A stretch of 64,000 nt of DNA from Erodium maritimum (Eukaryota; Streptophyta; Magnoliopsida; Geraniales; Geraniaceae), in NCBI GenBank assembly GCA_963921825.1, contig OY997589.1, positions 56,522,959 to 56,586,958 on the forward strand, in the 5' to 3' direction. The notes beneath the pieces are model-generated. The model worked only from the letters and a program-made list of their open reading frames with translations. It was not told the DNA's origin and made no database searches. This document shows, in pieces, positions 4,536 to 43,680 of the stretch (positions are counted from its first letter, which is position 1; each line of letters opens with the position of its first letter). A program made the position numbers and the translations under genes.

Positions 4536-5007
4536 CTGGCCGTTATGGAAGCCCTGTTACGGACAACGTTAGGCTCAGGTCAAACTCAGTTGTTGACTAC
4601 ATAGCGATCACAAAGACTCCTTGGTCTAAGGATACATGACAAGCTACGACAATGAATATGTTCATGACCTGATCTATGGCACATATTCATATCGGGTCGT
4701 CCAATATCATGTCCCACATGATATCTATGATCAGACTCCGGAATCCCATTCCAATGACTAACAGAACGTAAGCCATAAAGAGCCATCTTTCATACTAGTC
4801 GCTTCGAGTGAAGCTTTGTTAACTAGGGACCCATCGAGTATGATCTATCTCGATCTATGGTTCTATTCGCATGGTGGGCATAGATCAGAGCACACATCGA
4901 TATATTACTCCAACACATAAGTAATATAAAGCCGCTTTAATTTTATTGCTAACGATGATATATACATTTGGACATTTAGGATTGAACTACGGGCACTAAG
5001 ACTAACA
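4536..5007 (-). repeat. LTR A, truncated (first LTR of the array)
   Basis: Matches the last 472 bp on the plus strand of the 1.69-kb LTR (element 5' part) and ends ACTAACA at 5007. The remaining ~1.22 kb is missing; similarity starts abruptly at 4536 with CTGGCCGTTATGG. It differs from the inner LTRs at 4691 (A for G) and 4746 (C for T). The outer boundary of the array, and any target duplication there, has been lost. Confidence 0.92.
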
Positions 5008-5022
5008 ATCTCCCACTTGCCC
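5008..5022 (-). promoter_or_regulatory. Polypurine tract, copy 1
   Basis: On the minus strand this reads GGGCAAGTGGGAGAT immediately before the LTR start TGTTAGTC, the usual copia plus-strand primer site (AAGTGGGAGA). Equivalent tracts sit at 11777-11791, 18545-18559 and 25313-25327. Confidence 0.85.
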
Positions 5023-5158
5023 TAGTTCCAATCTAAACTCCAATATGTACCCATCGACTTTACATGTCTAACATGTTCAGGCAGTGACACTGCCTTAGTC
5101 AAAGGGTTGGCTATGTTATCATCTGTTGCAATATAGGTTATCTTCACTTCACCTTATT

Positions 5159-5500
5159 TCAGTATTTCTCTGATGAGGTGGATACGCCGCAGTACATGTT
5201 TGGATTTGTTATGCGATCTGGGCTTTTAGCTTGCGCAATGGCCCTTGTGTTGTCGCAAAATGGATTCACCGGGCTGGATGGGTTTTTAATTACACCCAGC
5301 CCTGCCATGAATTTCCAAATCCACATAGCCTCCTTAGCTGCCTCTGCAGCATCCATGTACTTGGCCTCTGTCGTAGATTCGGCAATGGTATCTTGCTTTA
5401 CGCTCTCCCAGCTAAAGCTCTGCCATTCAGCGTAAACACATATCCTGACTGACTTCTAAAGTCATCTGGATTTGTCTTGGAAAACTAGTGTCTACTCATC
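5159..5500 (-). pseudogene. RNase H domain relic, copy 1
   Basis: The frame contains the typical copia C-terminal block: a serine/threonine stretch, EAKYMDAAEAAKEAMWIWKF, then a CDN...AIA segment (family: CDNQSAIALA). The open stretch ends at 5159 soon after; the usual following HIDIRYHFIRE block is degraded to an NPNMYCGVSTSSEKY-like end. Confidence 0.8.
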
Positions 5501-5627
5501 CTTCGACGACTAGTTCAGCATCATCTTTTCCCCGGGTCAAAATGATGTCTACTGGTACAACATAAGGCTTACGAGACGTCCAGTCTCATACATGTCATGG
5601 CATATATGATCGATCCTGCCCCTAGGC

Positions 5628-6576
5628 TCATAGGATTCTCATCATCCTTTTCAGCTCATCAGCTGTCTTAGGACACCGAGTCTTGCTGAGATAAATGCCA
5701 TGACTAGTGGGTAAGAGTACTTTCTTTGAATCGAGCATTAAGAACCTACTCAATGCCTTGTTCACATAGGTTCCCTGACTTAAATCCAAGACCCTCTTGG
5801 TGCGATCTCTACATATCTTAATTCCTAAGATATAAGAAGCATCGCCTAAGTCATTTATTGAAAAACACTTCCTCAACCAAGCTTAAGTCTCGTGCAAGGT
5901 TGGGATGTCGTTTTCAATGAGAATCAGAAAGGTAATCTTGCTCCCACTAGCCTTCTTATAAACGCAAGATTCATCCTCGTTCTTGATTAAGCCAAATCCA
6001 ATTACAGCTTCATCAAAACGAAGGATCCAACTCCGAGAAGTTCGTTTCAATCCATAAATGGATTTCAACAACTTATAAATCTTTCCTTTATTCTTCGGAT
6101 CGTCAAAACCTTTGGGCCGAGACATACAAACGTACTCAGTCAAATTTCCATTTAGGAAACGCGGTTTTGACATCCACTTTCCATATCTCGTAATTATGAT
6201 ACGCAGTTATGTCAAGAAGAATTTGGATCGATTTTGACCATAGCCACTAAGGAGAAGGTTTCCTCATAGTCAATCCATGCCTATAACCTTTCGCCACCAG
6301 TTGAGCTTTGTAGGTCAGAGGTTTGCCGTCCATGTCCATCTTCACCTTGAAGATCCATTTGCATCCGATGGTCCTCACACCATTGATGGGATCAACCGGT
6401 TCCCAGACTCGGTTGTCCGACATGGATTGCATTTCCTCCCTCATGGCTCCCAGCCATAACTCGGAGTCGGGCCCATCCACGACTTCTTGAAAGGTGGCTG
6501 GATCATCGTGATCCACCATGTCTTCATTGTCACCTCCGGATACCATATCTTGGAGGTGGAAGATTGATCCTTTCAA
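5628..6576 (-). pseudogene. Reverse transcriptase relic, copy 1, YVDD motif deleted
   Basis: Three pieces: 6576-6247 holds the RT N-terminus (EEMQSMSDNRVWEPVD, then GCKWIFKVKMDMDGK); 6173-5883 holds KLLKSIYGLKRTSRSW, corresponding to the family YGLKQASRQW block; 5876-5628 holds LRKCFSINDLGDASYILGI. Between FLIL and NDIPTL the expected YVDDILLI-type catalytic segment is absent and the sequence reads straight into IEND (5907-5918), which looks like a short in-frame deletion removing both catalytic aspartates. A stop at 5883 follows. Confidence 0.88.
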
Positions 6577-7090
6577 ATCGCCTTGGACCTTCCGGAATTG
6601 TAACAGTAATTGGTTCTTACTCTACGACAATCTCTGGCTCCTTTCTACTGGGTTATCAATTGGTTTAGACAGATCTGTACCATCCTGAATTTCTTCGAGA
6701 TGCACAGTCCTCCCAATGACGTATTTGGAAACAAAACTCCTTTTCCATAAAGACCCCACCCCAAGCGACGAACACCATGTTCTCACTGGGATTGTAGAAG
6801 TAGTATCCCCTTGTTGCTTTGGGATACCACACGAAGGTGCATATCTCAGATCTTGGTTCGAGCTTAGTCAAAACCAAATGTTTCACATAAGCCTCGCAAC
6901 CACAAATCTTTAGGAAGGACAAAGCGGGCATCATCCCATATCATTTTAAAATGGTGTCCCTTCCACACCCTTCGTCGAACCCCGATTCACTATGAATGCG
7001 GTCGTCTCTAGAGCATAATCCCATAAAGAGATTGGGAGATCAGTCCAACTAATAATGGAACGGACCATTGTCTAACAATGTCCGATTTCT

Positions 7091-7853
7091 CCGTTTGGCT
7101 ACACCTTTCATCTACAGTGTCCCAGGAGGAGTCCATTCCAAAAGGATCCCATTCTCTTTTAGATGATCTAATAACTCTGTGGTCAAGTATTTTCCACCTC
7201 GATCCAATCGAAGTGCCTTAATACCTTTGTCGAGCTGGTTTTCTACTTTAGTCTTAAACTCTTTGAATTTATCAAAAGCTTCAGACTTATGTCTCAGCGA
7301 ATAGACATAACCATATTTACTGTAATCATCAGTAAATGTGATAAAGTAGCTAAAACCTCTCCTGGCAAGTGAACTTATTGGTCTACACACATTCGAGTGT
7401 ATCAGCCCCTATAATTCACCCGCCCTTTCATCGCGATCGATAAAAGGGCACTTTAGTCATTTTGCCCATCAAACAAACCTTGCACCTATCGATCGAATGG
7501 AATTCGAATGAACCTGAAAGTCCGCACTTCTGAAGTGCTAATAGGTGCTTCTTGTTTATGCGACCTAAATGACAGTGCCTTAACAGAGTTAGGTTTAAAT
7601 CGTTGGATTTAGACCTATTGGTATTAACGGAATATATAGAACTTGAGGCATTGTTACCCATATCTAATATGTACAATCCTCCAACTAAGTCAGTACTTGT
7701 ATAAAACATATCATTGCATAGAACATTGAAAACTCCATTTCCAATATTAACATTATATCCTTCCTTGTCAAACACGGATACAGATATAATATTCCTACTA
7801 AAAGTAGGTATGCAATATACATTATACAATACTAAGACAAGGCCACTTGGCAA
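7091..7853 (-). pseudogene. Integrase relic, copy 1, zinc-site and DDE residues mutated
   Basis: The GAG-pre-integrase block has LRHCHLGRINKKHL in place of family LWHxRLGHINKK, so the second zinc-binding His is Arg (about 7560-7568); the CKVCLMGKMTKVPF half is kept. The core keeps FITFTDDYSKYGYVY and the LDRGGKYL aspartate, but after TPPGT comes a stop and then GVAKRRN where the family has GV(S/A)ERRN: the catalytic Glu is Lys (codon at 7094-7096). Confidence 0.88.
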
Positions 7854-7960
7854 AGCAAGACTATCCTACAACAGTTGCCACAACTCTGAAGTCCACTTCG
7901 TGCTTTCCAAACCTCTCCTACTTTCAGCCACCATATATAAGTGCATGTGTGAGATTCAGT

Positions 7961-7969
7961 CCTGGTATC
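7961..7969 (-). other. Protease active-site triad mutated to DTR, copy 1
   Basis: The minus strand reads SWVLDTRTESH where copia proteases have WVLDTGASSH. GATACCAGG replaces the Asp-Thr-Gly codons, so the invariant Gly is Arg. Confidence 0.85.
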
Positions 7970-8017
7970 TAATACCCATGAATCTTTGGAAGTAGAGAGA
8001 TGTAGCTCTATAGAGTT

Positions 8018-8161
8018 AATACCGGATGAAGGCACGGTCCCACCGCCCTTCCTTAGATCATCCAGGTTTCCTAATGAAGGCGCAGTCCTACTGCCCTTCT
8101 TCAGATCATCCACGCTATTTGATGAAGGCGCAGTCCCACTGCCCTTCTTCAGATCAGCCAT
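8018..8161 (-). repeat. 48-bp tandem repeat between zinc knuckle and protease, copy 1
   Basis: Three in-frame 16-residue repeats of the type (A/D)DLKKGSGTAPSxxxx. On the plus strand the units are marked by GAAGGCGCAGTCC...CTGCCCTTCTTCAGATCA blocks. The repeat is in all four internal copies (14787-14930, 21555-21698 and 28323-28466 by offset). Confidence 0.85.
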
Positions 8162-8525
8162 GAACTTCCTGTAATCCCGGTTCCAATGACCAGGCTATTG
8201 GCAATAGAAGCAGACATTCTCAGCTGTCTCATCTTTCCTGCCAAGTGCGCATGGGCCCCGCCCTTGCCACTTCCAATTCCCTTGTTGACCATCAGAATAT
8301 CCTTGGATCCCAGATCCCTGATATATTCATTTCAGCAATTAATGACACTTCATGTAACTCTGATATGGTCTTAGAGACAGCCTTGTCAAGGACATATTCT
8401 TTGCGTTCAGACTTCAGGACTATCCTCAAAATTCTGTACCAGTCCAAATAGTTTGTCCCATTTAGCTTGACCCTGTCAAGAATGGTTTTTAATGACAAAC
8501 TATTAATGTTCGCTGAATTTGCCAT

Positions 8526-10068
8526 TTGATCTACAACAGATAAAATTTAATCAGTAAACTGAATAAATTTTATGAAGATCAAGCTTAAACACCAACAATC
8601 GATTCTAAACCTTTAGAATCTGAAACCAAGATCCTTGATTCACTCGATTAAGCTGAACTAATGCTCACCACTTAATCGAGCTATGTAGGTAGGACTCCAT
8701 CCAATCACATCCAATGTGACTCTTGGCTAGGGTATGTACTTATGTACACGACTTACCCTATCTGTTACCCTAGCTCAACCTCAGGCTGAGAATCGTAGTC
8801 GGGTCCACCAATTTTCAACTATGGCTCGTCACTATGTAGGTGCTCCGCTAATGCGCACGACACCCACATATGTCGTCCAAACCTACTACCCCGCTTCCCC
8901 ATGGATGCTCCGCTAATGCGCACGACACCCATAGGACGGGGAGGTAGTAAGGTGTTGATGATTGGGAGGTACCGGACATGACCCGCTTTTACTTGTCCAG
9001 TTGTGTTCAAAACTTTGGCACATCCTAGATGCGATGAGCACATCAACTACATTCCAAATGCAATGATGCCTCAAATTACATCCAATGTAATTCTTCCTTT
9101 AAACCCGTCAACTACATCCAATGCAATGACGGTTCTAAGGGTTCACACACAAGGATTAAAATTCCAATTTTATCTTTGCATGTGAGGTGATATGCTCGGT
9201 AAATAAAGTTAAGCATGCAATTCTAAAACACATAGAATTAATCATGCATTAACTAAACCAAGCATAAAGCGATAAATGTGCACATAATATCCCCCTAAAC
9301 TAACTCCCACTAGCTTCTTGAGCTCCACCGACTCCAAGCCGATGCCAACACCCGAAAAGCCACCAAATGACCTTTTCGCCCTTTCTTCGTCTTGAGTAAA
9401 AAATTACAATTTAATACACGACTCGCAGGTCGGGAATAAATAAATATTACAAACAAGTGGTTCGACGACCACACCTTGAAAGAATAATTACACGCTAACT
9501 CTAACGGCTCGCAGGCCGTGAAAAGCGATAAATAATTAAATCGAGCTCGGGGCTATTATGTACACCATGCCAACATCACATCACACATCGTGTAATCAAA
9601 CAAGCATGTTATCAAACATCATGTGATTTTCCGGTTTTAATTAATAGCCAAGTTTCGAAAATTTTTGATGCTCGGTTTATCGAAACCGTTCAAAAATGAA
9701 ACTTTTGAACATTTGATCTTCGAGTTCGTCATGACGGTTCCAAACTCGTCATAACTAACAAAACGGTTTAGCCTTGGCATATCAACCATCCAATGGTCAT
9801 GCTTGGCCTAGCTCCGTCCAACGGAGCCCCGTTCGGTCCCGGTTTCGGCTCCCCGAGAGTCCCGCTCCCGAGACCCGAAAAATCAAAAAAATTTCAAAAT
9901 TTCCAGATTTGAAATAATTTTCAAAAATTCATTTTACATGCATTAAATCCATGAACAAGAATTTAAAACATGTCATCAAACAATTTAGCAAAACAACATG
10001 CCAAAAACGAAACTTTCAAGCAAAACCGAAACTTTGAACACCGTCTTGTGAATCCCGAAGGTAGCACG
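8526..10068 (-). other. Untranslated leader of the copia element, copy 1
   Basis: About 1.5 kb lies between the primer binding site and the gag start at 8525, long for a copia leader, with no convincing ORF. It contains a near-perfect 25-bp direct repeat (GCTCCGCTAATGCGCACGAC..., at 8842 and 8907, period 65) and repeated ACATCCAATG(C/T)AAT motifs at about 9040-9130. Regulatory or packaging signals may lie here, but nothing shows this directly. Confidence 0.6.
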
Positions 10069-10080
10069 GCTCTGATACCA
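10069..10080 (-). promoter_or_regulatory. Primer binding site (initiator tRNA-Met type), copy 1
   Basis: The minus strand reads TGGTATCAGAGC, complementary to the 3' end of plant initiator tRNA-Met, one base after the LTR end ...CCCAACA. Equivalent sites are at 16838-16849, 23606-23617 and 30374-30385. In copy 2 the base at 16834, just inside, differs (A for C). Confidence 0.92.
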
Positions 10081-10454
10081 CTGTTGGGTCTCGAGGTAGG
10101 GTTGGAGATGAACCAACTCGCAGCGGAAAATCAATAAAAACCAAGAGACGATTAAAACCATGAAACAACTAACAAAGAATGGATTCACAAGAGAAAAATT
10201 CAGCACTATCTCTTACCAAAACAAGAACACCGGTTAACGAATGATTGGCTTGAGTCTCCAAGACGCCTACGTATCCACATGGGAATCAAAGCCACGTAGT
10301 TCTTCTCTTTGAGGACTCAAGAACACAAAAATGGAGGAGGAAACTAGCCAAACCCGAAATGGCCATGGAAGAGGGAGAGAAAATGTGTTTCCTATTCTTG
10401 TCTTGTCTTTGTTATGTTGAAAAAAGATGACTTAAACATAAAAAAAAAAAAAAC

Positions 10455-10491
10455 CCATACTTGTCCAACTAAAGGCATGGGACAAGTATGG
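10455..10491. repeat. Inverted repeat (hairpin) in the LTR
   Basis: CCATACTTGTCC at 10455-10466 pairs perfectly with GGACAAGTATGG at 10480-10491, leaving a 13-nt loop. Present in LTRs B to E. Confidence 0.85.
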
Positions 10492-10587
10492 TGTCAAGTA
10501 AGGTGTAAATAGGACAAAGTATGGCAAGACAAGATTGGGTTAGGTGGTGAATCACCAACACCTTAATCCTTGTCTTGCTTACTTAGT

Positions 10588-10616
10588 ACTAATTAATCAA
10601 GACTTGATTAATTAGT
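10588..10616. repeat. Near-perfect palindrome in the LTR
   Basis: ACTAATTAATCAAG, one central A, then CTTGATTAATTAGT: 14-bp arms with a single-base centre. Present in LTRs B to E. Confidence 0.9.
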
Positions 10617-11776
10617 TCCATGGGCCTTGGTTGCATGGGCCTTTCATGTGCCTCTTGGAACATGGCCCGTGGCCATTTCCAACGAGGTCCCGTGATTCGC
10701 TCATCGCCTCCATGCCTTCCATACCGGAAATGTCCAACATTATCCGACGCGATCAATCCCAAGACTCCAAGCCTTGTCTCGATCCGTAAAGTCCTATTCA
10801 CTTACGGGCACATGACCCAAAACCCAGTTTTGGTCATGTCCCGAGACAACTCCCTTTTGGCCATTCTCCATAAATGTGTCAATGAGTTTCATCCTCCGGT
10901 GTGACCCTTAGGTTTATGCATGTCAATAGATCAACGTAAAATCCCATTTTACTTGATCCTATTTAAGTGGCAACTAACGAGACTTTAGTATTGCCTGACA
11001 CTACATAACGAATCGACCCTGTCGATTCTAACCTTTCCGTCGTCCCTGTCATTATCCTTTTATCTCCGATATCCTGATTGAGATAAGGCATAGAGCCGTC
11101 ATCCTTATTATTCTCAATCATCGTTCCTTGATATGTGAGATGACTGAAGATATGATACCCAGTATCATGTGCATGGCCATGCTATTCTTTCAGTCACTCT
11201 CGATCAAGCGGCCGAGAACCGATATCTTTCCCATACCTCAGTATGAGGGATAAATCCCTTAGCCGTCTTTCGTGTCACTCATGTAGCCCGTCCCCAAGCC
11301 AATCCTGGCCGTTATGGAAGCCCTGTTACGGACAACGTTAGGCTCAGGTCAAACTCAGTTGTTGACTACATAGCGATCACAAAGACTCCTTGGTCTAAGG
11401 ATACATGACAAGCTACGACAATGAATATGTTCATGACCTGATCTATGGCACATATTCATGTCGGGTCGTCCAATATCATGTCCCACATGATATCTATGAT
11501 CAGACTCCGGAATCTCATTCCAATGACTAACAGAACGTAAGCCATAAAGAGCCATCTTTCATACTAGTCGCTTCGAGTGAAGCTTTGTTAACTAGGGACC
11601 CATCGAGTATGATCTATCTCGATCTATGGTTCTATTCGCATGGTGGGCATAGATCAGAGCACACATCGATATATTACTCCAACACATAAGTAATATAAAG
11701 CCGCTTTAATTTTATTGCTAACGATGATATATACATTTGGACATTTAGGATTGAACTACGGGCACTAAGACTAACA

Positions 11777-14700
11777 ATCTCCCACTTGCCCTAGTTCCAA
11801 TCTAAACTCCAATATGTACCCATCGACTTTACATGTCTAACATGTTCAGGCAGTGACACTGCCTTAGTCAAAGGGTTGGCTATGTTATCATCTGTTGCAA
11901 TATAGGTTATCTTCACTTCACCTTATTTCAGTATTTCTCTGATGAGGTGGATACGCCGCAGTACATGTTTGGATTTGTTATGCGATCTGGGCTTTTAGCT
12001 TGCGCAATGGCCCTTGTGTTGTCGCAAAATGGATTCACCGGGCTGGATGGGTTTTTAATTACACCCAGCCCTGCCATGAATTTCCAAATCCACATAGCCT
12101 CCTTAGCTGCCTCTGCAGCATCCATGTACTTGGCCTCTGTCGTAGATTCGGCAATGGTATCTTGCTTTACGCTCTCCCAGCTAAAGCTCTGCCATTCAGC
12201 GTAAACACATATCCTGACTGACTTCTAAAGTCATCTGGATTTGTCTTGGAAAACTAGTGTCTACTCATCCTTCGACGACTAGTTCAGCATCATCTTTTCC
12301 CCGGGTCAAAATGATGTCTACTGGTACAACATAAGGCTTACGAGACGTCCAGTCTCATACATGTCATGGCATATATGATCGATCCTGCCCCTAGGCTCAT
12401 AGGATTCTCATCATCCTTTTCAGCTCATCAGCTGTCTTAGGACACCGAGTCTTGCTGAGATAAATGCCATGACTAGTGGGTAAGAGTACTTTCTTTGAAT
12501 CGAGCATTAAGAACCTACTCAATGCCTTGTTCACATAGGTTCCCTGACTTAAATCCAAGACCCTCTTGGTGCGATCTCTACATATCTTAATTCCTAAGAT
12601 ATAAGAAGCATCGCCTAAGTCATTTATTGAAAAACACTTCCTCAACCAAGCTTAAGTCTCGTGCAAGGTTGGGATGTCGTTTTCAATGAGAATCAGAAAG
12701 GTAATCTTGCTCCCACTAGCCTTCTTATAAACGCAAGATTCATCCTCGTTCTTGATTAAGCCAAATCCAATTACAGCTTCATCAAAACGAAGGATCCAAC
12801 TCCGAGAAGTTCGTTTCAATCCATAAATGGATTTCAACAACTTATAAATCTTTCCTTTATTCTTCGGATCGTCAAAACCTTTGGGCCGAGACATACAAAC
12901 GTACTCAGTCAAATTTCCATTTAGGAAACGCGGTTTTGACATCCACTTTCCATATCTCGTAATTATGATACGCAGTTATGTCAAGAAGAATTTGGATCGA
13001 TTTTGACCATAGCCACTAAGGAGAAGGTTTCCTCATAGTCAATCCATGCCTATAACCTTTCGCCACCAGTTGAGCTTTGTAGGTCAGAGGTTTGCCGTCC
13101 ATGTCCATCTTCACCTTGAAGATCCATTTGCATCCGATGGTCCTCACACCATTGATGGGATCAACCGGTTCCCAGACTCGGTTGTCCGACATGGATTGCA
13201 TTTCCTCCCTCATGGCTCCCAGCCATAACTCGGAGTCGGGCCCATCCACGACTTCTTGAAAGGTGGCTGGATCATCGTGATCCACCATGTCTTCATTGTC
13301 ACCTCCGGATACCATATCTTGGAGGTGGAAGATTGATCCTTTCAAATCGCCTTGGACCTTCCGGAATTGTAACAGTAATTGGTTCTTACTCTACGACAAT
13401 CTCTGGCTCCTTTCTACTGGGTTATCAATTGGTTTAGACAGATCTGTACCATCCTGAATTTCTTCGAGATGCACAGTCCTCCCAATGACGTATTTGGAAA
13501 CAAAACTCCTTTTCCATAAAGACCCCACCCCAAGCGACGAACACCATGTTCTCACTGGGATTGTAGAAGTAGTATCCCCTTGTTGCTTTGGGATACCACA
13601 CGAAGGTGCATATCTCAGATCTTGGTTCGAGCTTAGTCAAAACCAAATGTTTCACATAAGCCTCGCAACCACAAATCTTTAGGAAGGACAAAGCGGGCAT
13701 CATCCCATATCATTTTAAAATGGTGTCCCTTCCACACCCTTCGTCGAACCCCGATTCACTATGAATGCGGTCGTCTCTAGAGCATAATCCCATAAAGAGA
13801 TTGGGAGATCAGTCCAACTAATAATGGAACGGACCATTGTCTAACAATGTCCGATTTCTCCGTTTGGCTACACCTTTCATCTACAGTGTCCCAGGAGGAG
13901 TCCATTCCAAAAGGATCCCATTCTCTTTTAGATGATCTAATAACTCTGTGGTCAAGTATTTTCCACCTCGATCCAATCGAAGTGCCTTAATACCTTTGTC
14001 GAGCTGGTTTTCTACTTTAGTCTTAAACTCTTTGAATTTATCAAAAGCTTCAGACTTATGTCTCAGCGAATAGACATAACCATATTTACTGTAATCATCA
14101 GTAAATGTGATAAAGTAGCTAAAACCTCTCCTGGCAAGTGAACTTATTGGTCTACACACATTCGAGTGTATCAGCCCCTATAATTCACCCGCCCTTTCAT
14201 CGCGATCGATAAAAGGGCACTTTAGTCATTTTGCCCATCAAACAAACCTTGCACCTATCGATCGAATGGAATTCGAATGAACCTGAAAGTCCGCACTTCT
14301 GAAGTGCTAATAGGTGCTTCTTGTTTATGCGACCTAAATGACAGTGCCTTAACAGAGTTAGGTTTAAATCGTTGGATTTAGACCTATTGGTATTAACGGA
14401 ATATATAGAACTTGAGGCATTGTTACCCATATCTAATATGTACAATCCTCCAACTAAGTCAGTACTTGTATAAAACATATCATTGCATAGAACATTGAAA
14501 ACTCCATTTCCAATATTAACATTATATCCTTCCTTGTCAAACACGGATACAGATATAATATTCCTACTAAAAGTAGGTATGCAATATACATTATACAATA
14601 CTAAGACAAGGCCACTTGGCAAAGCAAGACTATCCTACAACAGTTGCCACAACTCTGAAGTCCACTTCGTGCTTTCCAAACCTCTCCTACTTTCAGCCAC

Positions 14701-16850
14701 CATATATAAGTGCATGTGTGAGATTCAGTCCTGGTATCTAATACCCATGAATCTTTGGAAGTAGAGAGATGTAGCTCTATAGAGTTAATACCGGATGAAG
14801 GCACGGTCCCACCGCCCTTCCTTAGATCATCCAGGTTTCCTAATGAAGGCGCAGTCCTACTGCCCTTCTTCAGATCATCCACGCTATTTGATGAAGGCGC
14901 AGTCCCACTGCCCTTCTTCAGATCAGCCATGAACTTCCTGTAATCCCGGTTCCAATGACCAGGCTATTGGCAATAGAAGCAGACATTCTCAGCTGTCTCA
15001 TCTTTCCTGCCAAGTGCGCATGGGCCCCGCCCTTGCCACTTCCAATTCCCTTGTTGACCATCAGAATATCCTTGGATCCCAGATCCCTGATATATTCATT
15101 TCAGCAATTAATGACACTTCATGTAACTCTGATATGGTCTTAGAGACAGCCTTGTCAAGGACATATTCTTTGCGTTCAGACTTCAGGACTATCCTCAAAA
15201 TTCTGTACCAGTCCAAATAGTTTGTCCCATTTAGCTTGACCCTGTCAAGAATGGTTTTTAATGACAAACTATTAATGTTCGCTGAATTTGCCATTTGATC
15301 TACAACAGATAAAATTTAATCAGTAAACTGAATAAATTTTATGAAGATCAAGCTTAAACACCAACAATCGATTCTAAACCTTTAGAATCTGAAACCAAGA
15401 TCCTTGATTCACTCGATTAAGCTGAACTAATGCTCACCACTTAATCGAGCTATGTAGGTAGGACTCCATCCAATCACATCCAATGTGACTCTTGGCTAGG
15501 GTATGTACTTATGTACACGACTTACCCTATCTGTTACCCTAGCTCAACCTCAGGCTGAGAATCGTAGTCGGGTCCACCAATTTTCAACTATGGCTCGTCA
15601 CTATGTAGGTGCTCCGCTAATGCGCACGACACCCACATATGTCGTCCAAACCTACTACCCCGCTTCCCCATGGATGCTCCGCTAATGCGCACGACACCCA
15701 TAGGACGGGGAGGTAGTAAGGTGTTGATGATTGGGAGGTACCGGACATGACCCGCTTTTACTTGTCCAGTTGTGTTCAAAACTTTGGCACATCCTAGATG
15801 CGATGAGCACATCAACTACATTCCAAATGCAATGATGCCTCAAATTACATCCAATGTAATTCTTCCTTTAAACCCGTCAACTACATCCAATGCAATGACG
15901 GTTCTAAGGGTTCACACACAAGGATTAAAATTCCAATTTTATCTTTGCATGTGAGGTGATATGCTCGGTAAATAAAGTTAAGCATGCAATTCTAAAACAC
16001 ATAGAATTAATCATGCATTAACTAAACCAAGCATAAAGCGATAAATGTGCACATAATATCCCCCTAAACTAACTCCCACTAGCTTCTTGAGCTCCACCGA
16101 CTCCAAGCCGATGCCAACACCCGAAAAGCCACCAAATGACCTTTTCGCCCTTTCTTCGTCTTGAGTAAAAAATTACAATTTAATACACGACTCGCAGGTC
16201 GGGAATAAATAAATATTACAAACAAGTGGTTCGACGACCACACCTTGAAAGAATAATTACACGCTAACTCTAACGGCTCGCAGGCCGTGAAAAGCGATAA
16301 ATAATTAAATCGAGCTCGGGGCTATTATGTACACCATGCCAACATCACATCACACATCGTGTTATCAAACAAGCATGTTATCAAACATCATGTGATTTTC
16401 CGGTTTTAATTAATAGCCAAGTTTCGAAAATTTTTGATGCTCGGTTTATCGAAACCGTTCAAAAATGAAACTTTTGAACATTTGATCTTCGAGTTCGTCA
16501 TGACGGTTCCAAACTCGTCATAACTAACAAAACGGTTTAGCCTTGGCATATCAACCATCCAATGGTCATGCTTGGCCTAGCTCCGTCCAACGGAGCCCCG
16601 TTCGGTCCCGGTTTCGGCTCCCCGAGAGTCCCGCTCCCGAGACCCGAAAAATCAAAAAAATTTCAAAATTTCCAGATTTGAAATAATTTTCAAAAATTCA
16701 TTTTACATGCATTAAATCCATGAACAAGAATTTAAAACATGTCATCAAACAATTTAGCAAAACAACATGCCAAAAACGAAACTTTCAAGCAAAACCGAAA
16801 CTTTGAACACCGTCTTGTGAATCCCGAAGGTAGAACGGCTCTGATACCAC
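11777..16850 (-). mobile_element. Internal region, array copy 2
   Basis: Collinear with copy 1 at offset 6769 and carries the same stops, the DTR protease, the deleted YVDD and the mutated integrase residues. Its gag-pol relic spans 11928-15294. Private or informative changes seen: A for C at 16834 next to the primer binding site; T at 16363 where copy 1 (9594) has A. Confidence 0.93.
11928..15294 (-). pseudogene. copia gag-pol relic, array copy 2
   Basis: Same fragmentation and domain order as copy 1: gag from 15294, knuckle about 14950-14984, protease DTR at 14730-14738, integrase 14622-13860, RT 13345-12397, RNase H to 11928. All translated pieces match copy 1 residue for residue as far as I compared. 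Confidence 0.92.
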
Positions 16851-21500: not shown

Positions 21501-23618
21501 GGTATCTAATACCCATGAATCTTTGGAAGTAGAGAGATGTAGCTCTATAGAGTTAATACCGGATGAAGGCACGGTCCCACCGCCCTTCCTTAGATCATCC
21601 AGGTTTCCTAATGAAGGCGCAGTCCTACTGCCCTTCTTCAGATCATCCACGCTATTTGATGAAGGCGCAGTCCCACTGCCCTTCTTCAGATCAGCCATGA
21701 ACTTCCTGTAATCCCGGTTCCAATGACCAGGCTATTGGCAATAGAAGCAGACATTCTCAGCTGTCTCATCTTTCCTGCCAAGTGCGCATGGGCCCCGCCC
21801 TTGCCACTTCCAATTCCCTTGTTGACCATCAGAATATCCTTGGATCCCAGATCCCTGATATATTCATTTCAGCAATTAATGACACTTCATGTAACTCTGA
21901 TATGGTCTTAGAGACAGCCTTGTCAAGGACATATTCTTTGCGTTCAGACTTCAGGACTATCCTCAAAATTCTGTACCAGTCCAAATAGTTTGTCCCATTT
22001 AGCTTGACCCTGTCAAGAATGGTTTTTAATGACAAACTATTAATGTTCGCTGAATTTGCCATTTGATCTACAACAGATAAAATTTAATCAGTAAACTGAA
22101 TAAATTTTATGAAGATCAAGCTTAAACACCAACAATCGATTCTAAACCTTTAGAATCTGAAACCAAGATCCTTGATTCACTCGATTAAGCTGAACTAATG
22201 CTCACCACTTAATCGAGCTATGTAGGTAGGACTCCATCCAATCACATCCAATGTGACTCTTGGCTAGGGTATGTACTTATGTACACGACTTACCCTATCT
22301 GTTACCCTAGCTCAACCTCAGGCTGAGAATCGTAGTCGGGTCCACCAATTTTCAACTATGGCTCGTCACTATGTAGGTGCTCCGCTAATGCGCACGACAC
22401 CCACATATGTCGTCCAAACCTACTACCCCGCTTCCCCATGGATGCTCCGCTAATGCGCACGACACCCATAGGACGGGGAGGTAGTAAGGTGTTGATGATT
22501 GGGAGGTACCGGACATGACCCGCTTTTACTTGTCCAGTTGTGTTCAAAACTTTGGCACATCCTAGATGCGATGAGCACATCAACTACATTCCAAATGCAA
22601 TGATGCCTCAAATTACATCCAATGTAATTCTTCCTTTAAACCCGTCAACTACATCCAATGCAATGACGGTTCTAAGGGTTCACACACAAGGATTAAAATT
22701 CCAATTTTATCTTTGCATGTGAGGTGATATGCTCGGTAAATAAAGTTAAGCATGCAATTCTAAAACACATAGAATTAATCATGCATTAACTAAACCAAGC
22801 ATAAAGCGATAAATGTGCACATAATATCCCCCTAAACTAACTCCCACTAGCTTCTTGAGCTCCACCGACTCCAAGCCGATGCCAACACCCGAAAAGCCAC
22901 CAAATGACCTTTTCGCCCTTTCTTCGTCTTGAGTAAAAAATTACAATTTAATACACGACTCGCAGGTCGGGAATAAATAAATATTACAAACAAGTGGTTC
23001 GACGACCACACCTTGAAAGAATAATTACACGCTAACTCTAACGGCTCGCAGGCCGTGAAAAGCGATAAATAATTAAATCGAGCTCGGGGCTATTATGTAC
23101 ACCATGCCAACATCACATCACACATCGTGTTATCAAACAAGCATGTTATCAAACATCATGTGATTTTCCGGTTTTAATTAATAGCCAAGTTTCGAAAATT
23201 TTTGATGCTCGGTTTATCGAAACCGTTCAAAAATGAAACTTTTGAACATTTGATCTTCGAGTTCGTCATGACGGTTCCAAACTCGTCATAACTAACAAAA
23301 CGGTTTAGCCTTGGCATATCAACCATCCAATGGTCATGCTTGGCCTAGCTCCGTCCAACGGAGCCCCGTTCGGTCCCGGTTTCGGCTCCCCGAGAGTCCC
23401 GCTCCCGAGACCCGAAAAATCAAAAAAATTTCAAAATTTCCAGATTTGAAATAATTTTCAAAAATTCATTTTACATGCATTAAATCCATGAACAAGAATT
23501 TAAAACATGTCATCAAACAATTTAGCAAAACAACATGCCAAAAACGAAACTTTCAAGCAAAACCGAAACTTTGAACACCGTCTTGTGAATCCCGAAGGTA
23601 GCACGGCTCTGATACCAC
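18545..23618 (-). mobile_element. Internal region, array copy 3
   Basis: Collinear with copy 2 at offset 6768, with the same lesions. Gag-pol relic at 18696-22062; primer binding site 23606-23617; polypurine tract 18545-18559. I saw no private substitution in it. Confidence 0.93.
18696..22062 (-). pseudogene. copia gag-pol relic, array copy 3
   Basis: Same pieces, order and inactivating changes as copies 1 and 2: gag from 22062, protease with DTR, integrase 21390-20628, RT 20113-19165, RNase H to 18696. Confidence 0.92.
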
Positions 23619-25312
23619 TGTTGGGTCTCGAGGTAGGGTTGGAGATGAACCAACTCGCAGCGGAAAATCAATAAAAACCAAGAGACGATTAAAACCATGA
23701 AACAACTAACAAAGAATGGATTCACAAGAGAAAAATTCAGCACTATCTCTTACCAAAACAAGAACACCGGTTAACGAATGATTGGCTTGAGTCTCCAAGA
23801 CGCCTACGTATCCACATGGGAATCAAAGCCACGTAGTTCTTCTCTTTGAGGACTCAAGAACACAAAAATGGAGGAGGAAACTAGCCAAACCCGAAATGGC
23901 CATGGAAGAGGGAGAGAAAATGTGTTTCCTATTCTTGTCTTGTCTTTGTTATGTTGAAAAAAGATGACTTAAACATAAAAAAAAAAAAACCCATACTTGT
24001 CCAACTAAAGGCATGGGACAAGTATGGTGTCAAGTAAGGTGTAAATAGGACAAAGTATGGCAAGACAAGATTGGGTTAGGTGGTGAATCACCAACACCTT
24101 AATCCTTGTCTTGCTTACTTAGTACTAATTAATCAAGACTTGATTAATTAGTTCCATGGGCCTTGGTTGCATGGGCCTTTCATGTGCCTCTTGGAACATG
24201 GCCCGTGGCCATTTCCAACGAGGTCCCGTGATTCGCTCATCGCCTCCATGCCTTCCATACCGGAAATGTCCAACATTATCCGACGCGATCAATCCCAAGA
24301 CTCCAAGCCTTGTCTCGATCCGTAAAGTCCTATTCACTTACGGGCACATGACCCAAAACCCAGTTTTGGTCATGTCCCGAGACAACTCCCTTTTGGCCAT
24401 TCTCCATAAATGTGTCAATGAGTTTCATCCTCCGGTGTGACCCTTAGGTTTATGCATGTCAATAGATCAACGTAAAATCCCATTTTACTTGATCCTATTT
24501 AAGTGGCAACTAACGAGACTTTAGTATTGCCTGACACTACATAACGAATCGACCCTGTCGATTCTAACCTTTCCGTCGTCCCTGTCATTATCCTTTTATC
24601 TCCGATATCCTGATTGAGATAAGGCATAGAGCCGTCATCCTTATTATTCTCAATCATCGTTCCTTGATATGTGAGATGACTGAAGATATGATACCCAGTA
24701 TCATGTGCATGGCCATGCTATTCTTTCAGTCACTCTCGATCAAGCGGCCGAGAACCGATATCTTTCCCATACCTCAGTATGAGGGATAAATCCCTTAGCC
24801 GTCTTTCGTGTCACTCATGTAGCCCGTCCCCAAGCCAATCCTGGCCGTTATGGAAGCCCTGTTACGGACAACGTTAGGCTCAGGTCAAACTCAGTTGTTG
24901 ACTACATAGCGATCACAAAGACTCATTGGTCTAAGGATACATGACAAGCTACGACAATGAATATGTTCATGACCTGATCTATGGCACATATTCATGTCGG
25001 GTCGTCCAATATCATGTCCCACATGATATCTATGATCAGACTCCGGAATCTCATTCCAATGACTAACAGAACGTAAGCCATAAAGAGCCATCTTTCATAC
25101 TAGTCGCTTCGAGTGAAGCTTTGTTAACTAGGGACCCATCGAGTATGATCTATCTCGATCTATGGTTCTATTCGCATGGTGGGCATAGATCAGAGCACAC
25201 ATCGATATATTACTCCAACACATAAGTAATATAAAGCCGCTTTAATTTTATTGCTAACGATGATATATACATTTGGACATTTAGGATTGAACTACGGGCA
25301 CTAAGACTAACA
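23619..25312 (-). repeat. LTR D (1694 bp, complete)
   Basis: Matches LTR C including 13 A in the homopolymer. One private change seen: A for C at 24925. Confidence 0.93.
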
Positions 25313-28300
25313 ATCTCCCACTTGCCCTAGTTCCAATCTAAACTCCAATATGTACCCATCGACTTTACATGTCTAACATGTTCAGGCAGTGACACTGCCT
25401 TAGTCAAAGGGTTGGCTATGTTATCATCTGTTGCAATATAGGTTATCTTCACTTCACCTTATTTCAGTATTTCTCTGATGAGGTGGATACGCCGCAGTAC
25501 ATGTTTGGATTTGTTATGCGATCTGGGCTTTTAGCTTGCGCAATGGCCCTTGTGTTGTCGCAAAATGGATTCACCGGGCTGGATGGGTTTTTAATTACAC
25601 CCAGCCCTGCCATGAATTTCCAAATCCACATAGCCTCCTTAGCTGCCTCTGCAGCATCCATGTACTTGGCCTCTGTCGTAGATTCGGCAATGGTATCTTG
25701 CTTTACGCTCTCCCAGCTAAAGCTCTGCCATTCAGCGTAAACACATATCCTGACTGACTTCTAAAGTCATCTGGATTTGTCTTGGAAAACTAGTGTCTAC
25801 TCATCCTTCGACGACTAGTTCAGCATCATCTTTTCCCCGGGTCAAAATGATGTCTACTGGTACAACATAAGGCTTACGAGACGTCCAGTCTCATACATGT
25901 CATGGCATATATGATCGATCCTGCCCCTAGGCTCATAGGATTCTCATCATCCTTTTCAGCTCATCAGCTGTCTTAGGACACCGAGTCTTGCTGAGATAAA
26001 TGCCATGACTAGTGGGTAAGAGTACTTTCTTTGAATCGAGCATTAAGAACCTACTCAATGCCTTGTTCACATAGGTTCCCTGACTTAAATCCAAGACCCT
26101 CTTGGTGCGATCTCTACATATCTTAATTCCTAAGATATAAGAAGCATCGCCTAAGTCATTTATTGAAAAACACTTCCTCAACCAAGCTTAAGTCTCGTGC
26201 AAGGTTGGGATGTCGTTTTCAATGAGAATCAGAAAGGTAATCTTGCTCCCACTAGCCTTCTTATAAACGCAAGATTCATCCTCGTTCTTGATTAAGCCAA
26301 ATCCAATTACAGCTTCATCAAAACGAAGGATCCAACTCCGAGAAGTTCGTTTCAATCCATAAATGGATTTCAACAACTTATAAATCTTTCCTTTATTCTT
26401 CGGATCGTCAAAACCTTTGGGCCGAGACATACAAACGTACTCAGTCAAATTTCCATTTAGGAAACGCGGTTTTGACATCCACTTTCCATATCTCGTAATT
26501 ATGATACGCAGTTATGTCAAGAAGAATTTGGATCGATTTTGACCATAGCCACTAAGGAGAAGGTTTCCTCATAGTCAATCCATGCCTATAACCTTTCGCC
26601 ACCAGTTGAGCTTTGTAGGTCAGAGGTTTGCCGTCCATGTCCATCTTCACCTTGAAGATCCATTTGCATCCGATGGTCCTCACACCATTGATGGGATCAA
26701 CCGGTTCCCAGACTCGGTTGTCCGACATGGATTGCATTTCCTCCCTCATGGCTCCCAGCCATAACTCGGAGTCGGGCCCATCCACGACTTCTTGAAAGGT
26801 GGCTGGATCATCGTGATCCACCATGTCTTCATTGTCACCTCCGGATACCATATCTTGGAGGTGGAAGATTGATCCTTTCAAATCGCCTTGGACCTTCCGG
26901 AATTGTAACAGTAATTGGTTCTTACTCTACGACAATCTCTGGCTCCTTTCTACTGGGTTATCAATTGGTTTAGACAGATCTGTACCATCCTGAATTTCTT
27001 CGAGATGCACAGTCCTCCCAATGACGTATTTGGAAACAAAACTCCTTTTCCATAAAGACCCCACCCCAAGCGACGAACACCATGTTCTCACTGGGATTGT
27101 AGAAGTAGTATCCCCTTGTTGCTTTGGGATACCACACGAAGGTGCATATCTCAGATCTTGGTTCGAGCTTAGTCAAAACCAAATGTTTCACATAAGCCTC
27201 GCAACCACAAATTTTTAGGAAGGACAAAGCGGGCATCATCCCATATCATTTTAAAATGGTGTCCCTTCCACACCCTTCGTCGAACCCCGATTCACTATGA
27301 ATGCGGTCGTCTCTAGAGCATAATCCCATAAAGAGATTGGGAGATCAGTCCAACTAATAATGGAACGGACCATTGTCTAACAATGTCCGATTTCTCCGTT
27401 TGGCTACACCTTTCATCTACAGTGTCCCAGGAGGAGTCCATTCCAAAAGGATCTCATTCTCTTTTAGATGATCTAATAACTCTGTGGTCAAGTATTTTCC
27501 ACCTCGATCCAATCGAAGTGCCTTAATACCTTTGTCGAGCTGGTTTTCTACTTTAGTCTTAAACTCTTTGAATTTATCAAAAGCTTCAGACTTATGTCTC
27601 AGCGAATAGACATAACCATATTTACTGTAATCATCAGTAAATGTGATAAAGTAGCTAAAACCTCTCCTGGCAAGTGAACTTATTGGTCTACACACATTCG
27701 AGTGTATCAGCCCCTATAATTCACCCGCCCTTTCATCGCGATCGATAAAAGGGCACTTTAGTCATTTTGCCCATCAAACAAACCTTGCACCTATCGATCG
27801 AATGGAATTCGAATGAACCTGAAAGTCCGCACTTCTGAAGTGCTAATAGGTGCTTCTTGTTTATGCGACCTAAATGACAGTGCCTTAACAGAGTTAGGTT
27901 TAAATCGTTGGATTTAGACCTATTGGTATTAACGGAATATATAGAACTTGAGGCATTGTTACCCATATCTAATATGTACAATCCTCCAACTAAGTCAGTA
28001 CTTGTATAAAACATATCATTGCATAGAACATTGAAAACTCCATTTCCAATATTAACATTATATCCTTCCTTGTCAAACACGGATACAGATATAATATTCC
28101 TACTAAAAGTAGGTATGCAATATACATTATACAATACTAAGACAAGGCCACTTGGCAAAGCAAGACTATCCTACAACAGTTGCCACAACTCTGAAGTCCA
28201 CTTCGTGCTTTCCAAACCTCTCCTACTTTCAGCCACCATATATAAGTGCATGTGTGAGATTCAGTCCTGGTATCTAATACCCATGAATCTTTGGAAGTAG

Positions 28301-30386
28301 AGAGATGTAGCTCTATAGAGTTAATACCGGATGAAGGCACGGTCCCACCGCCCTTCCTTAGATCATCCAGGTTTCCTAATGAAGGCGCAGTCCTACTGCC
28401 CTTCTTCAGATCATCCACGCTATTTGATGAAGGCGCAGTCCCACTGCCCTTCTTCAGATCAGCCATGAACTTCCTGTAATCCCGGTTCCAATGACCAGGC
28501 TATTGGCAATAGAAGCAGACATTCTCAGCTGTCTCATCTTTCCTGCCAAGTGCGCATGGGCCCCGCCCTTGCCACTTCCAATTCCCTTGTTGACCATCAG
28601 AATATCCTTGGATCCCAGATCCCTGATATATTCATTTCAGCAATTAATGACACTTCATGTAACTCTGATATGGTCTTAGAGACAGCCTTGTCAAGGACAT
28701 ATTCTTTGCGTTCAGACTTCAGGACTATCCTCAAAATTCTGTACCAGTCCAAATAGTTTGTCCCATTTAGCTTGACCCTGTCAAGAATGGTTTTTAATGA
28801 CAAACTATTAATGTTCGCTGAATTTGCCATTTGATCTACAACAGATAAAATTTAATCAGTAAACTGAATAAATTTTATGAAGATCAAGCTTAAACACCAA
28901 CAATCGATTCTAAACCTTTAGAATCTGAAACCAAGATCCTTGATTCACTCGATTAAGCTGAACTAATGCTCACCACTTAATCGAGCTATGTAGGTAGGAC
29001 TCCATCCAATCACATCCAATGTGACTCTTGGCTAGGGTATGTACTTATGTACACGACTTACCCTATCTGTTACCCTAGCTCAACCTCAGGCTGAGAATCG
29101 TAGTCGGGTCCACCAATTTTCAACTATGGCTCGTCACTATGTAGGTGCTCCGCTAATGCGCACGACACCCACATATGTCGTCCAAACCTACTACCCCGCT
29201 TCCCCATGGATGCTCCGCTAATGCGCACGACACCCATAGGACGGGGAGGTAGTAAGGTGTTGATGATTGGGAGGTACCGGACATGACCCGCTTTTACTTG
29301 TCCAGTTGTGTTCAAAACTTTGGCACATCCTAGATGCGATGAGCACATCAACTACATTCCAAATGCAATGATGCCTCAAATTACATCCAATGTAATTCTT
29401 CCTTTAAACCCGTCAACTACATCCAATGCAATGACGGTTCTAAGGGTTCACACACAAGGATTAAAATTCCAATTTTATCTTTGCATGTGAGGTGATATGC
29501 TCGGTAAATAAAGTTAAGCATGCAATTCTAAAACACATAGAATTAATCATGCATTAACTAAACCAAGCATAAAGCGATAAATGTGCACATAATATCCCCC
29601 TAAACTAACTCCCACTAGCTTCTTGAGCTCCACCGACTCCAAGCCGATGCCAACACCCGAAAAGCCACCAAATGACCTTTTCGCCCTTTCTTCGTCTTGA
29701 GTAAAAAATTACAATTTAATACACGACTCGCAGGTCGGGAATAAATAAATATTACAAACAAGTGGTTCGACGACCACACCTTGAAAGAATAATTACACGC
29801 TAACTCTAACGGCTCGCAGGCCGTGAAAAGCGATAAATAATTAAATCGAGCTCGGGGCTATTATGTACACCATGCCAACATCACATCACACATCGTGTTA
29901 TCAAACAAGCATGTTATCAAACATCATGTGATTTTCCGGTTTTAATTAATAGCCAAGTTTCGAAAATTTTTGATGCTCGGTTTATCGAAACCGTTCAAAA
30001 ATGAAACTTTTGAACATTTGATCTTCGAGTTCGTCATGACGGTTCCAAACTCGTCATAACTAACAAAACGGTTTAGCCTTGGCATATCAACCATCCAATG
30101 GTCATGCTTGGCCTAGCTCCGTCCAACGGAGCCCCGTTCGGTCCCGGTTTCGGCTCCCCGAGAGTCCCGCTCCCGAGACCCGAAAAATCAAAAAAATTTC
30201 AAAATTTCCAGATTTGAAATAATTTTCAAAAATTCATTTTACATGCATTAAATCCATGAACAAGAATTTAAAACATGTCATCAAACAATTTAGCAAAACA
30301 ACATGCCAAAAACGAAACTTTCAAGCAAAACCGAAACTTTGAACACCGTCTTGTGAATCCCGAAGGTAGCACGGCTCTGATACCAC
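25313..30386 (-). mobile_element. Internal region, array copy 4
   Basis: Collinear with copy 3 at offset 6768. Two private changes seen: T for C at 27213 and T for C at 27454; the second changes Gly to Glu in the integrase piece. Gag-pol relic at 25464-28830; primer binding site 30374-30385; polypurine tract 25313-25327. Confidence 0.93.
25464..28830 (-). pseudogene. copia gag-pol relic, array copy 4
   Basis: Same domain order and shared lesions as the other copies, plus the private Gly-to-Glu change in the integrase core piece (27417-27695). Gag from 28830, RT 26881-25933, RNase H to 25464. Confidence 0.92.
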
Positions 30387-32077
30387 TGTTGGGTCTCGAG
30401 GTAGGGTTGGAGATGAACCAACTCGCAGCGGAAAATCAATAAAAACCAAGAGACGATTAAAACCATGAAACAACTAACAAAGAATGGATTCACAAGAGAA
30501 AAATTCAGCACTATCTCTTACCAAAACAAGAACACCGGTTAACGAATGATTGGCTTGAGTCTCCAAGACGCCTACGTATCCACATGGGAATCAAAGCCAC
30601 GTAGTTCTTCTCTTTGAGGACTCAAGAACACAAAAATGGAGGAGGAAACTAGCCAAACCCGAAATGGCCATGGAAGAGGGAGAGAAAATGTGTTTCCTAT
30701 TCTTGTCTTGTCTTTGTTATGTTGAAAAAAGATGACTTAAACATAAAAAAAAAACCCATACTTGTCCAACTAAAGGCATGGGACAAGTATGGTGTCAAGT
30801 AAGGTGTAAATAGGACAAAGTATGGCAAGACAAGATTGGGTTAGGTGGTGAATCACCAACACCTTAATCCTTGTCTTGCTTACTTAGTACTAATTAATCA
30901 AGACTTGATTAATTAGTTCCATGGGCCTTGGTTGCATGGGCCTTTCATGTGCCTCTTGGAACATGGCCCGTGGCCATTTCCAACGAGGTCCCGTGATTCG
31001 CTCATCGCCTCCATGCCTTCCATACCGGAAATGTCCAACATTATCCGACGCGATCAATCCCAAGACTCCAAGCCTTGTCTCGATCCGTAAAGTCCTATTC
31101 ACTTACGGGCACATGACCCAAAACCCAGTTTTGGTCATGTCCCGAGACAACTCCCTTTTGGCCATTCTCCATAAATGTGTCAATGAGTTTCATCCTCCGG
31201 TGTGACCCTTAGGTTTATGCATGTCAATAGATCAACGTAAAATCCCATTTTACTTGATCCTATTTAAGTGGCAACTAACGAGACTTTAGTATTGCCTGAC
31301 ACTACATAACGAATCGACCCTGTCGATTCTAACCTTTCCGTCGTCCCTGTCATTATCCTTTTATCTCCGATATCCTGATTGAGATAAGGCATAGAGCCGT
31401 CATCCTTATTATTCTCAATCATCGTTCCTTGATATGTGAGATGACTGAAGATATGATACCCAGTATCATGTGCATGGCCATGCTATTCTTTCAGTCACTC
31501 TCGATCAAGCGGCCGAGAACCGATATCTTTCCCATACCTCAGTATGAGGGATAAATCCCTTAGCCGTCTTTCGTGTCACTCATGTAGCCCGTCCCCAAGC
31601 CAATCCTGGCTGTTATGGAAGCCCTGTTACGGACAACGTTAGGCTCAGGTCAAACTCAGTTGTTGACTACATAGCGATCACAAAGACTCCTTGGTCTAAG
31701 GATACATGACAAGCTACGACAATGAATATGTTCATGACCTGATCTATGGCACATATTCATGTCGGGTCGTCCAATATCATGTCCCACATGATATCTATGA
31801 TCAGACTCCGGAATCTCATTCCAATGACTAACAGAACGTAAGCCATAAAGAGCCATCTTTCATACTAGTCGCTTCTAGTGAAGCTTTGTTAACTAGGGAC
31901 CCATCGAGTATGATCTATCTCGATCTATGGTTCTATTCGCATGGTGGGCATAGATCAGAGCACACATCGATATATTACTCCAACACATAAGTAATATAAA
32001 GCCGCTTTAATTTTATTGCTAACGATGATATATACATTTGGACATTTAGGATTGAACTACGGGCACTAAGACTAACA
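30387..32077 (-). repeat. LTR E (1691 bp, complete; right end of the array)
   Basis: Ends ...GACTAACA at 32077, followed by TTAAT of the flank. It has the shortest poly-A run (10 A) and private changes at 31611 (T for C) and 31876 (T for G). As the outermost 5' LTR it would drive transcription of the array on the minus strand. Confidence 0.93.
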
Positions 32078-42276: not shown

Positions 42277-43339
42277 AATTTCTGTTAAAAATGGATGAAA
42301 AGTTAACAATGGGTACTAAAATGGAATAAATGAAAGTTTAGGGTACTGAGATGGCACAAAAAAGTGTTAGGGTACTCTAAATGAAAAATAAAAGTTTTAG
42401 GGTACTTATGTTGTCACGCCCCAAATCCGGTATTGACCGGACCCGAGACGTGACTTAGCGAATTTAAATAAAGCAGTAAAAAGATATAAGTAATATCTGA
42501 ATAAGATGAAATAACATAAAACAACGGAAGTTCAAAACCCTGAGTCACAGCTCAGTCAATACAATAATTCAAGAAAAAAAGGTACGTCTCTACGAACTCA
42601 AAATAAAGATAATCCCGGACCCTCGCTAGCCCCATGCTCCGGGATGTCCTCTACTCCAAGTCAAAGCTAACACCTGTAGAAAACACATTAAGGGGTGAGC
42701 TTGACGCTCAGTAGGGAAAAGCCCCGAAAACCACCTCAAACAGATTTACCAGAAAGTTATTCCACAAGTTTAAGTCATATTAAAAGTTTGATATAACGAT
42801 GCGACACTGAAGCCAATTTAAAGACAAAACCCTTTTTAAACCTGACGCTCAACGTTCCAACCATACCAACTTTAACTCAATCACCAATCATTAAACCAGG
42901 CACACAACGAAGAGAACAAACCAACTAAGACACCCAATTACATTTCCAACTACCCTTTGGACACTTAAAAGGAGAAGGCGACAACGGAAACAATACTCCA
43001 AATTAAACAACATTTACTTTAACCAACCACAAACTATCCCGGAAATCCTCGTCCAAAGCCCCCTTCACAACCGACTCACGGATGACCACAAAGACGACAC
43101 TTTAACTTACACGGAAATTACACACATGAACTCATCGTCAAACAATCAAAACCAAGCCATTCGCGGTCACACACAACTCATAACAAGGAAACACTCATAG
43201 CCACAAACACAAAACCACTCGTTAAACCAAACATCATCAAAACATACAACTCGTAACCCATGCACAGTCTCGGGAGCAACCCACTCGGCCCGGCGCAGCC
43301 GCACGCAACTTTCCCCTAACACACAGTCAGGAGGGGCGG

Positions 43340-43680
43340 TCGACCACATCGCGGAACACATCGTTTTACCGATCGACGGAAGGCAGGGAAATCGCCTCTT
43401 CGCGGCCTCATCTCTCGCGGCATCGCGGAACAACCTCATCGTGGCACAACACAGCGTTTTACCGAGTGCTAGTCGGAAGGTAGGGAAACCACCTCTTCAC
43501 GGGACATAGCGTTTTACCGACTCACGGTCGGAAGGTAGGGAAACCACCTGTCTCGTGTATCACAGTACACCAAGCCTCACACTTTACCGATCGCGCTCCG
43601 GAAGGTACGACTCACCTTGCGGAAGTACGTCTCTCACACTTTACCGGCGGCGCAACGGAAGGTACGACACACCTCTCGGG
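43340..43680 (+). repeat. Minisatellite within the 3.3-kb LTR
   Basis: Five degenerate units of the type TTTACCGA(...)CGGAAGGTAGGGAAACCACCTC, about 45-80 bp apart (near 43371, 43450, 43511, 43581 and 43640). They correspond to the units at 1927-2125 in the opposed fragment. Confidence 0.75.

Follow-up and report, generated by a model that had tools for sequence, protein, structure and literature searches.

We analysed a window of 64,000 nucleotides (C2:56522959-56586958) in the genome assembly of Erodium maritimum, which comprises 763 Mb in 40 contigs. Between positions 4536 and 32077 of the window, the minus strand carries four head-to-tail units and five LTRs, with no foreign bases in between in the sequence as assembled (Table 1). 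The units (1 to 4) measure 6765, 6768, 6768, and 6769 bp. Comparison of the window with itself gave matches displaced by one to four units, and 20,780 bp align one unit away at 99.92% identity, which is far beyond chance. Nine substitution sites and one change in poly-T length distinguish the copies, the mismatch at LTR position 473, at the broken left edge, being assigned to the flank and standing outside this count. The unit lengths and these ten differences bear out the original prediction of five LTRs alternating with four internal regions on the minus strand, with a period of about 6768 bp and some ten substitutions.

Each unit opens with an LTR, followed after one base by the primer-binding site TGGTATCAGAGC. 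The remainder of the internal region, which measures approximately 5.07 kb, comes next, and a purine-rich tract, AGTGGGAGAT, lies directly before the next LTR. The LTRs have TG...CA ends. That of unit 1 is 1691 bp in length (TGTTAG...CCAACA, then G and TGGTATCAGAGC), and those of units 2-4 are 1694-1695 bp as judged from the primer-site coordinates; copies elsewhere in the genome match positions 1-1691 or 1-1692 of the query, which gives the full LTR length. Four of the five LTRs are complete. The LTR of about 475 bp that had been predicted corresponds to the stretch shared with the truncated final copy and was rejected in favour of a length of about 1.69 kb. Since this last (3') LTR is cut after 472 bp, no target-site duplication can be read: no flanking 5-bp duplication was seen at the array, where it has been lost or made unreadable.

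Table 1. Features of the array, given as positions in the window
Feature	Position	Strand	Remark
Unit 1: complete 5'-most LTR (30387-32077) and internal region	25313-32077	-	A at LTR 202, like dispersed LTRs
Unit 2: hybrid middle LTR and internal region	18545-25312	-	
Unit 3: hybrid middle LTR and internal region	11777-18544	-	
Unit 4: hybrid middle LTR and internal region	5008-11776	-	
3' LTR remnant, first 472 bp only	4536-5007	-	Cut at CCAG/CAT into host sequence
Primer-binding site TGGTATCAGAGC, unit 1	30374-30385	-	
Primer-binding sites TGGTATCAGAGC, other units	23606-23617, 16838-16849, 10069-10080	-	
Purine-rich tract abutting LTR start	25307-25322	-	
Purine-rich tracts, other copies	18539-18554, 11771-11786, 5002-5017	-	
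Broken reverse transcriptase pieces (RVT_2), unit 4 example	5631-6621	-	Three pieces: one above, two below Pfam cut-off
Broken integrase-region pieces (SH3_retrovirus, rve, gag_pre-integrs), unit 4 example	6668-7865	-	Each above Pfam cut-off

Outside the array, the window contains a COBRA-family gene (52450-53844) and, near 36.3 kb, a match to a Myb domain, both indicative of a plant, and no tRNA genes were found in it by ARAGORN. Three inverted segments that are 78-82% alike and about 40 kb apart flank the array (1603-2792 and 42411-44178). Just left of the window, on the opposite strand, lie an LTR and internal sequence of the same family (L032, C2:56520878-56522570); this LTR is older, 88% alike, and does not represent the missing piece of the truncated 3' LTR.

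The element and its family

The minus-strand domain order, gag_pre-integrs, rve, and SH3 followed by RVT_2, places integrase before reverse transcriptase, as in Copia elements; two RVT_2 pieces, Pol_BBD, and a gag piece fall below the Pfam cut-off. The assignment to Copia made in the original prediction is confirmed by this order and by the RVT_2-type reverse transcriptase, with the addition that the element is coding-dead and non-autonomous. An intact polyprotein frame is absent: in the four internal regions, stop-free stretches on the sense strand reach 145 amino acids at most, and an ordinary autonomous Copia element was rejected on account of these broken reading frames. In the coding relic upstream of the integrase region, a 48-bp repeat of 2.8 copies (8026-8160) occurs at the same place in each unit.

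Of the best 40 of 4481 matches to a 2.5-kb internal piece, 36 lie outside the array, at 97-100% identity and some of them partial. On C4 and C1, LTR pairs with a spacing of about 6.77 kb represent ordinary single elements of the family. All nine dispersed internal regions compared are likewise broken, as judged from the length of their longest stop-free runs (142-269 amino acids). In a search for an autonomous partner, neither the LTR nor the internal region gave a match in eight RVT_2 loci with open frames of 599-1463 amino acids, each locus being just 3732 bp long. Because the array element and the dispersed copies compared carry broken coding sequence, we read the family as non-autonomous and presumably moved by enzymes supplied from elsewhere. 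One further member, at C4:58.85 Mb (L017), is a single element that landed inside a second family member; internal positions 468-472 form its 5-bp target-site duplication.

Origin of the units and composition of their LTRs

The units were compared with 19 dispersed LTRs and nine dispersed internal regions from 13 of the fetched loci; the internal parts of L022, L023, L026, L028, and L029 were omitted, as were several partial or second LTRs. In the window units, the boundary between LTR and internal region was placed 3-4 bases early, so that the internal positions quoted include those bases, and no counted substitution falls within them. Most DNA searches took the best 40 candidates, the LTR search for the C4 array described below took all 13, and the RVT_2 search took 150 of 19,132; since only top-scoring candidates were scored, the genome-wide counts are lower bounds.

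Over 6.77 kb, units 2-4 differ from one another by two substitutions and from unit 1 by five. The internal regions of the four units differ pairwise at 1-3 of 5077 sites, and the nearest of the nine dispersed internal regions differ from them at 36-38 of 4735 (L030) and 37-39 of 5074 sites (L025). Ten states are common to all four units, two in the LTR that are absent from the 19 dispersed LTRs and eight in the internal region that are absent from the nine dispersed regions. This low divergence together with the private states points to local copying of a single element, and at the level of the sequences compared the array derives from one element copied in place. Every unit also has substitutions of its own, at LTR 388 (unit 2), internal 20 (unit 3), internal 491 (unit 4), and LTR 467, internal 2936, and internal 3177 (unit 1). 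Among the best 40 of 4672 candidates, full internal-LTR-internal junctions were found three times in the array and once on C8; the other matches stop at or near the LTR edge or span part of the query.

The outer LTRs are more diverged than the units that they enclose: unit 1 and the remnant differ at four of 472 LTR positions, versus three of 5077 between the internal regions of units 1 and 4 (Fisher's exact test, p = 0.0015). One of the four, site 467, has A in unit 1 only and must be a later private change; without it, p = 0.010. Two others are informative as to the composition of the middle LTRs. At position 202, units 2-4 and the 3' remnant have C, compared with A in unit 1 and in all 19 of the dispersed LTRs. 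A 35-base pattern allowing A or C at this position occurs at 90 places in the genome, with C in just the four array LTRs. A shorter 25-mer with C occurs at 12 places, four in the array and eight outside, none of the eight fitting the 35-base pattern; the notion that 202C is absent from the rest of the genome was rejected, and because of these outside occurrences its uniqueness is limited to the local haplotype. At position 262, units 1-4 have A, and the remnant and three of three other LTRs with the 168T/187T haplotype have G; across the 19 dispersed LTRs, 15 have G and four A. Given the states at these two sites, each middle LTR begins with sequence of the 3' LTR and continues with that of the 5' LTR.

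The three middle LTRs agree in their switch interval, and a T run in each is longer by at least three T, an extension missing from unit 1 and from all 19 dispersed LTRs; the simplest account of this sharing is one crossover followed by copying of units. On sequence grounds, then, the middle LTRs are mosaic, with one informative site on each side of the switch in the window. In favour of a crossover, all four combinations of 202 and 262 exist once the 168T/187T relatives are counted. Against it, site 262 varies in the family, and a recurrent change at this site would remove the crossover in the window. Substitution rates of 0.7-1.3e-8 per site per year would place the divergence of the outer LTRs at about 0.3-0.6 million years and that of the units at about 11-42 thousand years, figures that rest on few changes and are orders of magnitude only.

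Tandems elsewhere in the genome

Two further arrays were found among the best 150 of 19,132 RVT_2 candidates. The first (C4:52030932-52044390; L033, L034) is a Copia array of three units and four 316-bp LTRs, belonging to a low-copy family with 13 LTR places found and with reverse transcriptase frames open over 585 amino acids. It is flanked by TATAC on both sides, a 5-bp duplication whose left side is a TA-rich run. The outer LTRs differ at eight of 316 positions, versus two of 4065 for the internal regions (p = 2.7e-8). At sites 18, 45, 227, and 240, the middle LTRs have derived bases in common with the 3' LTR (at 227, a third base is present in one outgroup), at site 312 a derived base is common to the 5' and middle LTRs, at site 251 a new base is present in both middle LTRs only, and the changes at 222, 277, and 278 are private to an outer LTR. 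The outgroups were four LTRs forming two pairs about 4.4 kb apart (C1, C7), that is, four of the six closest outside LTRs, the C2 pair being left out. As read from these bases, the array calls for a crossover somewhere in the interval 240-312, or else for several recurrent changes, after which the hybrid would have been copied. It has the same mosaic as the window array at more sites and is the clearest case of mosaic LTRs that we saw.

The second array (C3:40049999-40061870; L035, L036) has two units with reverse transcriptase frames of 1355 amino acids. Its outer LTRs differ at six of 732 positions and its internal regions at none of 4838 (p = 5e-6). The sites lie on the predicted sides, but when the LTR of one relative is taken as reference, each of the six changes is confined to an outer LTR; as there are no shared derived bases, the array backs the crossover route by layout and age only, and it is consistent with crossing-over after insertion. 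It gave no match to any of the primer-site motifs tried. The repeat seems to extend about ten bases past the TG...CA end, and the 3' end may also be truncated.

A tandem on C8 (C8:22198249-22211027; L026, L038) belongs to the family of the window array and has the order internal-LTR-internal-LTR, with the start of the first internal region missing. Its LTRs are identical (0 of 1685), whereas its internal regions differ at 116 of 4319 positions (2.7%). This age pattern is the opposite of that in the window and suggests that the tandem probably formed in another way; it would fit the joining of a young copy and an older one, through either an inter-element or a cDNA route. The C8 pattern contradicts a single route for all tandems. 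A cluster of the same family at C2:39.36-39.39 Mb was rejected as a tandem, its match coordinates being read as those of a nested insertion accompanied by a short target duplication.

Routes of formation and comparison with known systems

We propose, with a probability of roughly 0.8, that an LTR-LTR crossover in one inserted element, followed by copying of whole units, built the array in the window. A single non-autonomous Copia element would have inserted at the locus, and both of its LTRs would then have gathered differences, the 3' LTR probably being truncated to 472 bp already before the crossover. The start of the 3' LTR on one chromatid or homologue would have crossed over with the corresponding stretch of the 5' LTR on its partner, between 202 and 262, to give the product 5' LTR-internal-hybrid LTR-internal-3' LTR. 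Out-of-register pairing would then have copied the hybrid LTR and its internal region at least once more, giving four units. The involvement of a sister chromatid or a homologue, the order of truncation and crossover, and the number of later steps are points that we infer.

The original prediction had offered serial unequal crossing-over between LTRs, rolling-circle or circular-DNA reintegration, and insertion of a concatemer. The first is supported, and the last is disfavoured by the mosaic middle LTRs and by the divergence of the outer LTRs relative to the internal regions (4/472 versus 3/5077, p = 0.0015). Insertion of a whole tandem, from concatemeric cDNA or from a template-switch dimer as modelled by Sabot and Schulman (PMC1950507), would agree with the high similarity of the units, and the broken end leaves no readable duplication to contradict it. 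However, the model as presented there predicts alike outer LTRs, and 202C is found in four of the five LTRs but not in unit 1. Because a whole-tandem insertion should give equal ages and the outer LTRs are more diverged than the units, we consider this origin highly improbable. A single-LTR circle, excised here by LTR:LTR recombination and reinserted into an LTR by homologous recombination, might have added units; it would bear the same type of hybrid LTR as units 2-4, and circles from yeast Ty LTRs have been reported (PMC4751563). Such a circle is nevertheless unlikely, as it requires two events where one is enough and no second switch point was found in the middle LTRs.

In principle, separate insertions (two or more) of family members could have recombined or landed next to each other, and the C8 tandem, with its identical LTRs and diverged internal regions, resembles such a case. 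For the window array this is refuted by the mere 1-3 differences per 5077 internal sites and the ten private states common to the units, unless gene conversion wiped out all differences, and we give it almost no weight. Nested insertion was also rejected as a cause of the window array. The assembler may have inflated the number of units, a reading that overlaps the others rather than excluding them: the units are near-identical, and 27.5 kb exceeds many reads. Each unit has its own substitution, however; collapsing or duplicating a single copy would not produce these, and we regard an inflated count as quite unlikely.

There is about an even chance that shared-LTR tandems in this genome arise by at least two routes, separable from one assembly alone, namely crossing-over between an element's own LTRs after insertion (the window, C4, and probably C3) and the joining of a young and an old copy (C8), and that from two units on whole-unit copying takes over, letting an old, coding-dead element regrow in satellite-like fashion without transposing. 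The divergence of outer LTRs relative to units, together with derived bases in the middle LTRs, can settle the route locus by locus without population data, and extending the same comparison to every tandem in long-read plant genomes would yield the share of each route. A dead element growing through recombination is a plausible first step to satellite DNA. Among the papers listed in literature searches, no polarised mosaic-LTR test on a tandem came up, and we claim no priority.

Shared-LTR tandems are common in plants, with 266 reported in a rice pangenome (Morales-Diaz et al., 2025, PMC11899658), and recombination between the LTRs of two elements is one way to tandem retrotransposons that share an LTR (review, PMC12628747). 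In the rice, Arabidopsis, almond, and cotton tandems, as in the window, LTRs and internal regions alternate and the units are very similar, and a single insertion was inferred at the loci studied in detail, as it is here. The two loci detailed there have two internal regions and three LTRs, compared with four units in the window, and the rice tandems are mostly Gypsy, whereas the window array is Copia, coding-dead, and has polarised mosaic LTRs. Perfect target duplications flank 10 of 28 tandems (PMC11899658), and a flanking duplication is therefore not defining for this class. Between insertion as a tandem and later recombination, the authors of that survey left the route undecided. Five-LTR runs, described as uncommon in the original prediction, are less rare than this implied: besides the rice tandems, four elements with more than three LTRs were counted in Arabidopsis (LTRtype, PMC5379124), where the portion available gives no mechanism.

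The Triticeae complexes described by Sabot and Schulman (2007, PMC1950507) have a shared internal LTR, and a chimeric middle LTR marks recombination there, as in the window. In that account, the recombinant class joins two insertions and has no flanking duplications, whereas complexes formed by template switching have duplications and outer LTRs that are alike. The C4 array belongs to neither class, because it combines a duplication with diverged outer LTRs and a chimeric middle LTR. TARE1 was rejected as a parallel, being described as autonomous (PMC3701649). The Cassandra TRIM (Kalendar et al., 2020, PMC7215508) is, like the window element, non-autonomous and forms long shared-LTR arrays; it is, however, a miniature element with 5S sequences and at least 12 repeated LTRs as described there, in contrast to the 6.77-kb unit with coding relics in the window. 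The window array is a further case of these known shared-LTR tandems, with an unusually readable history.
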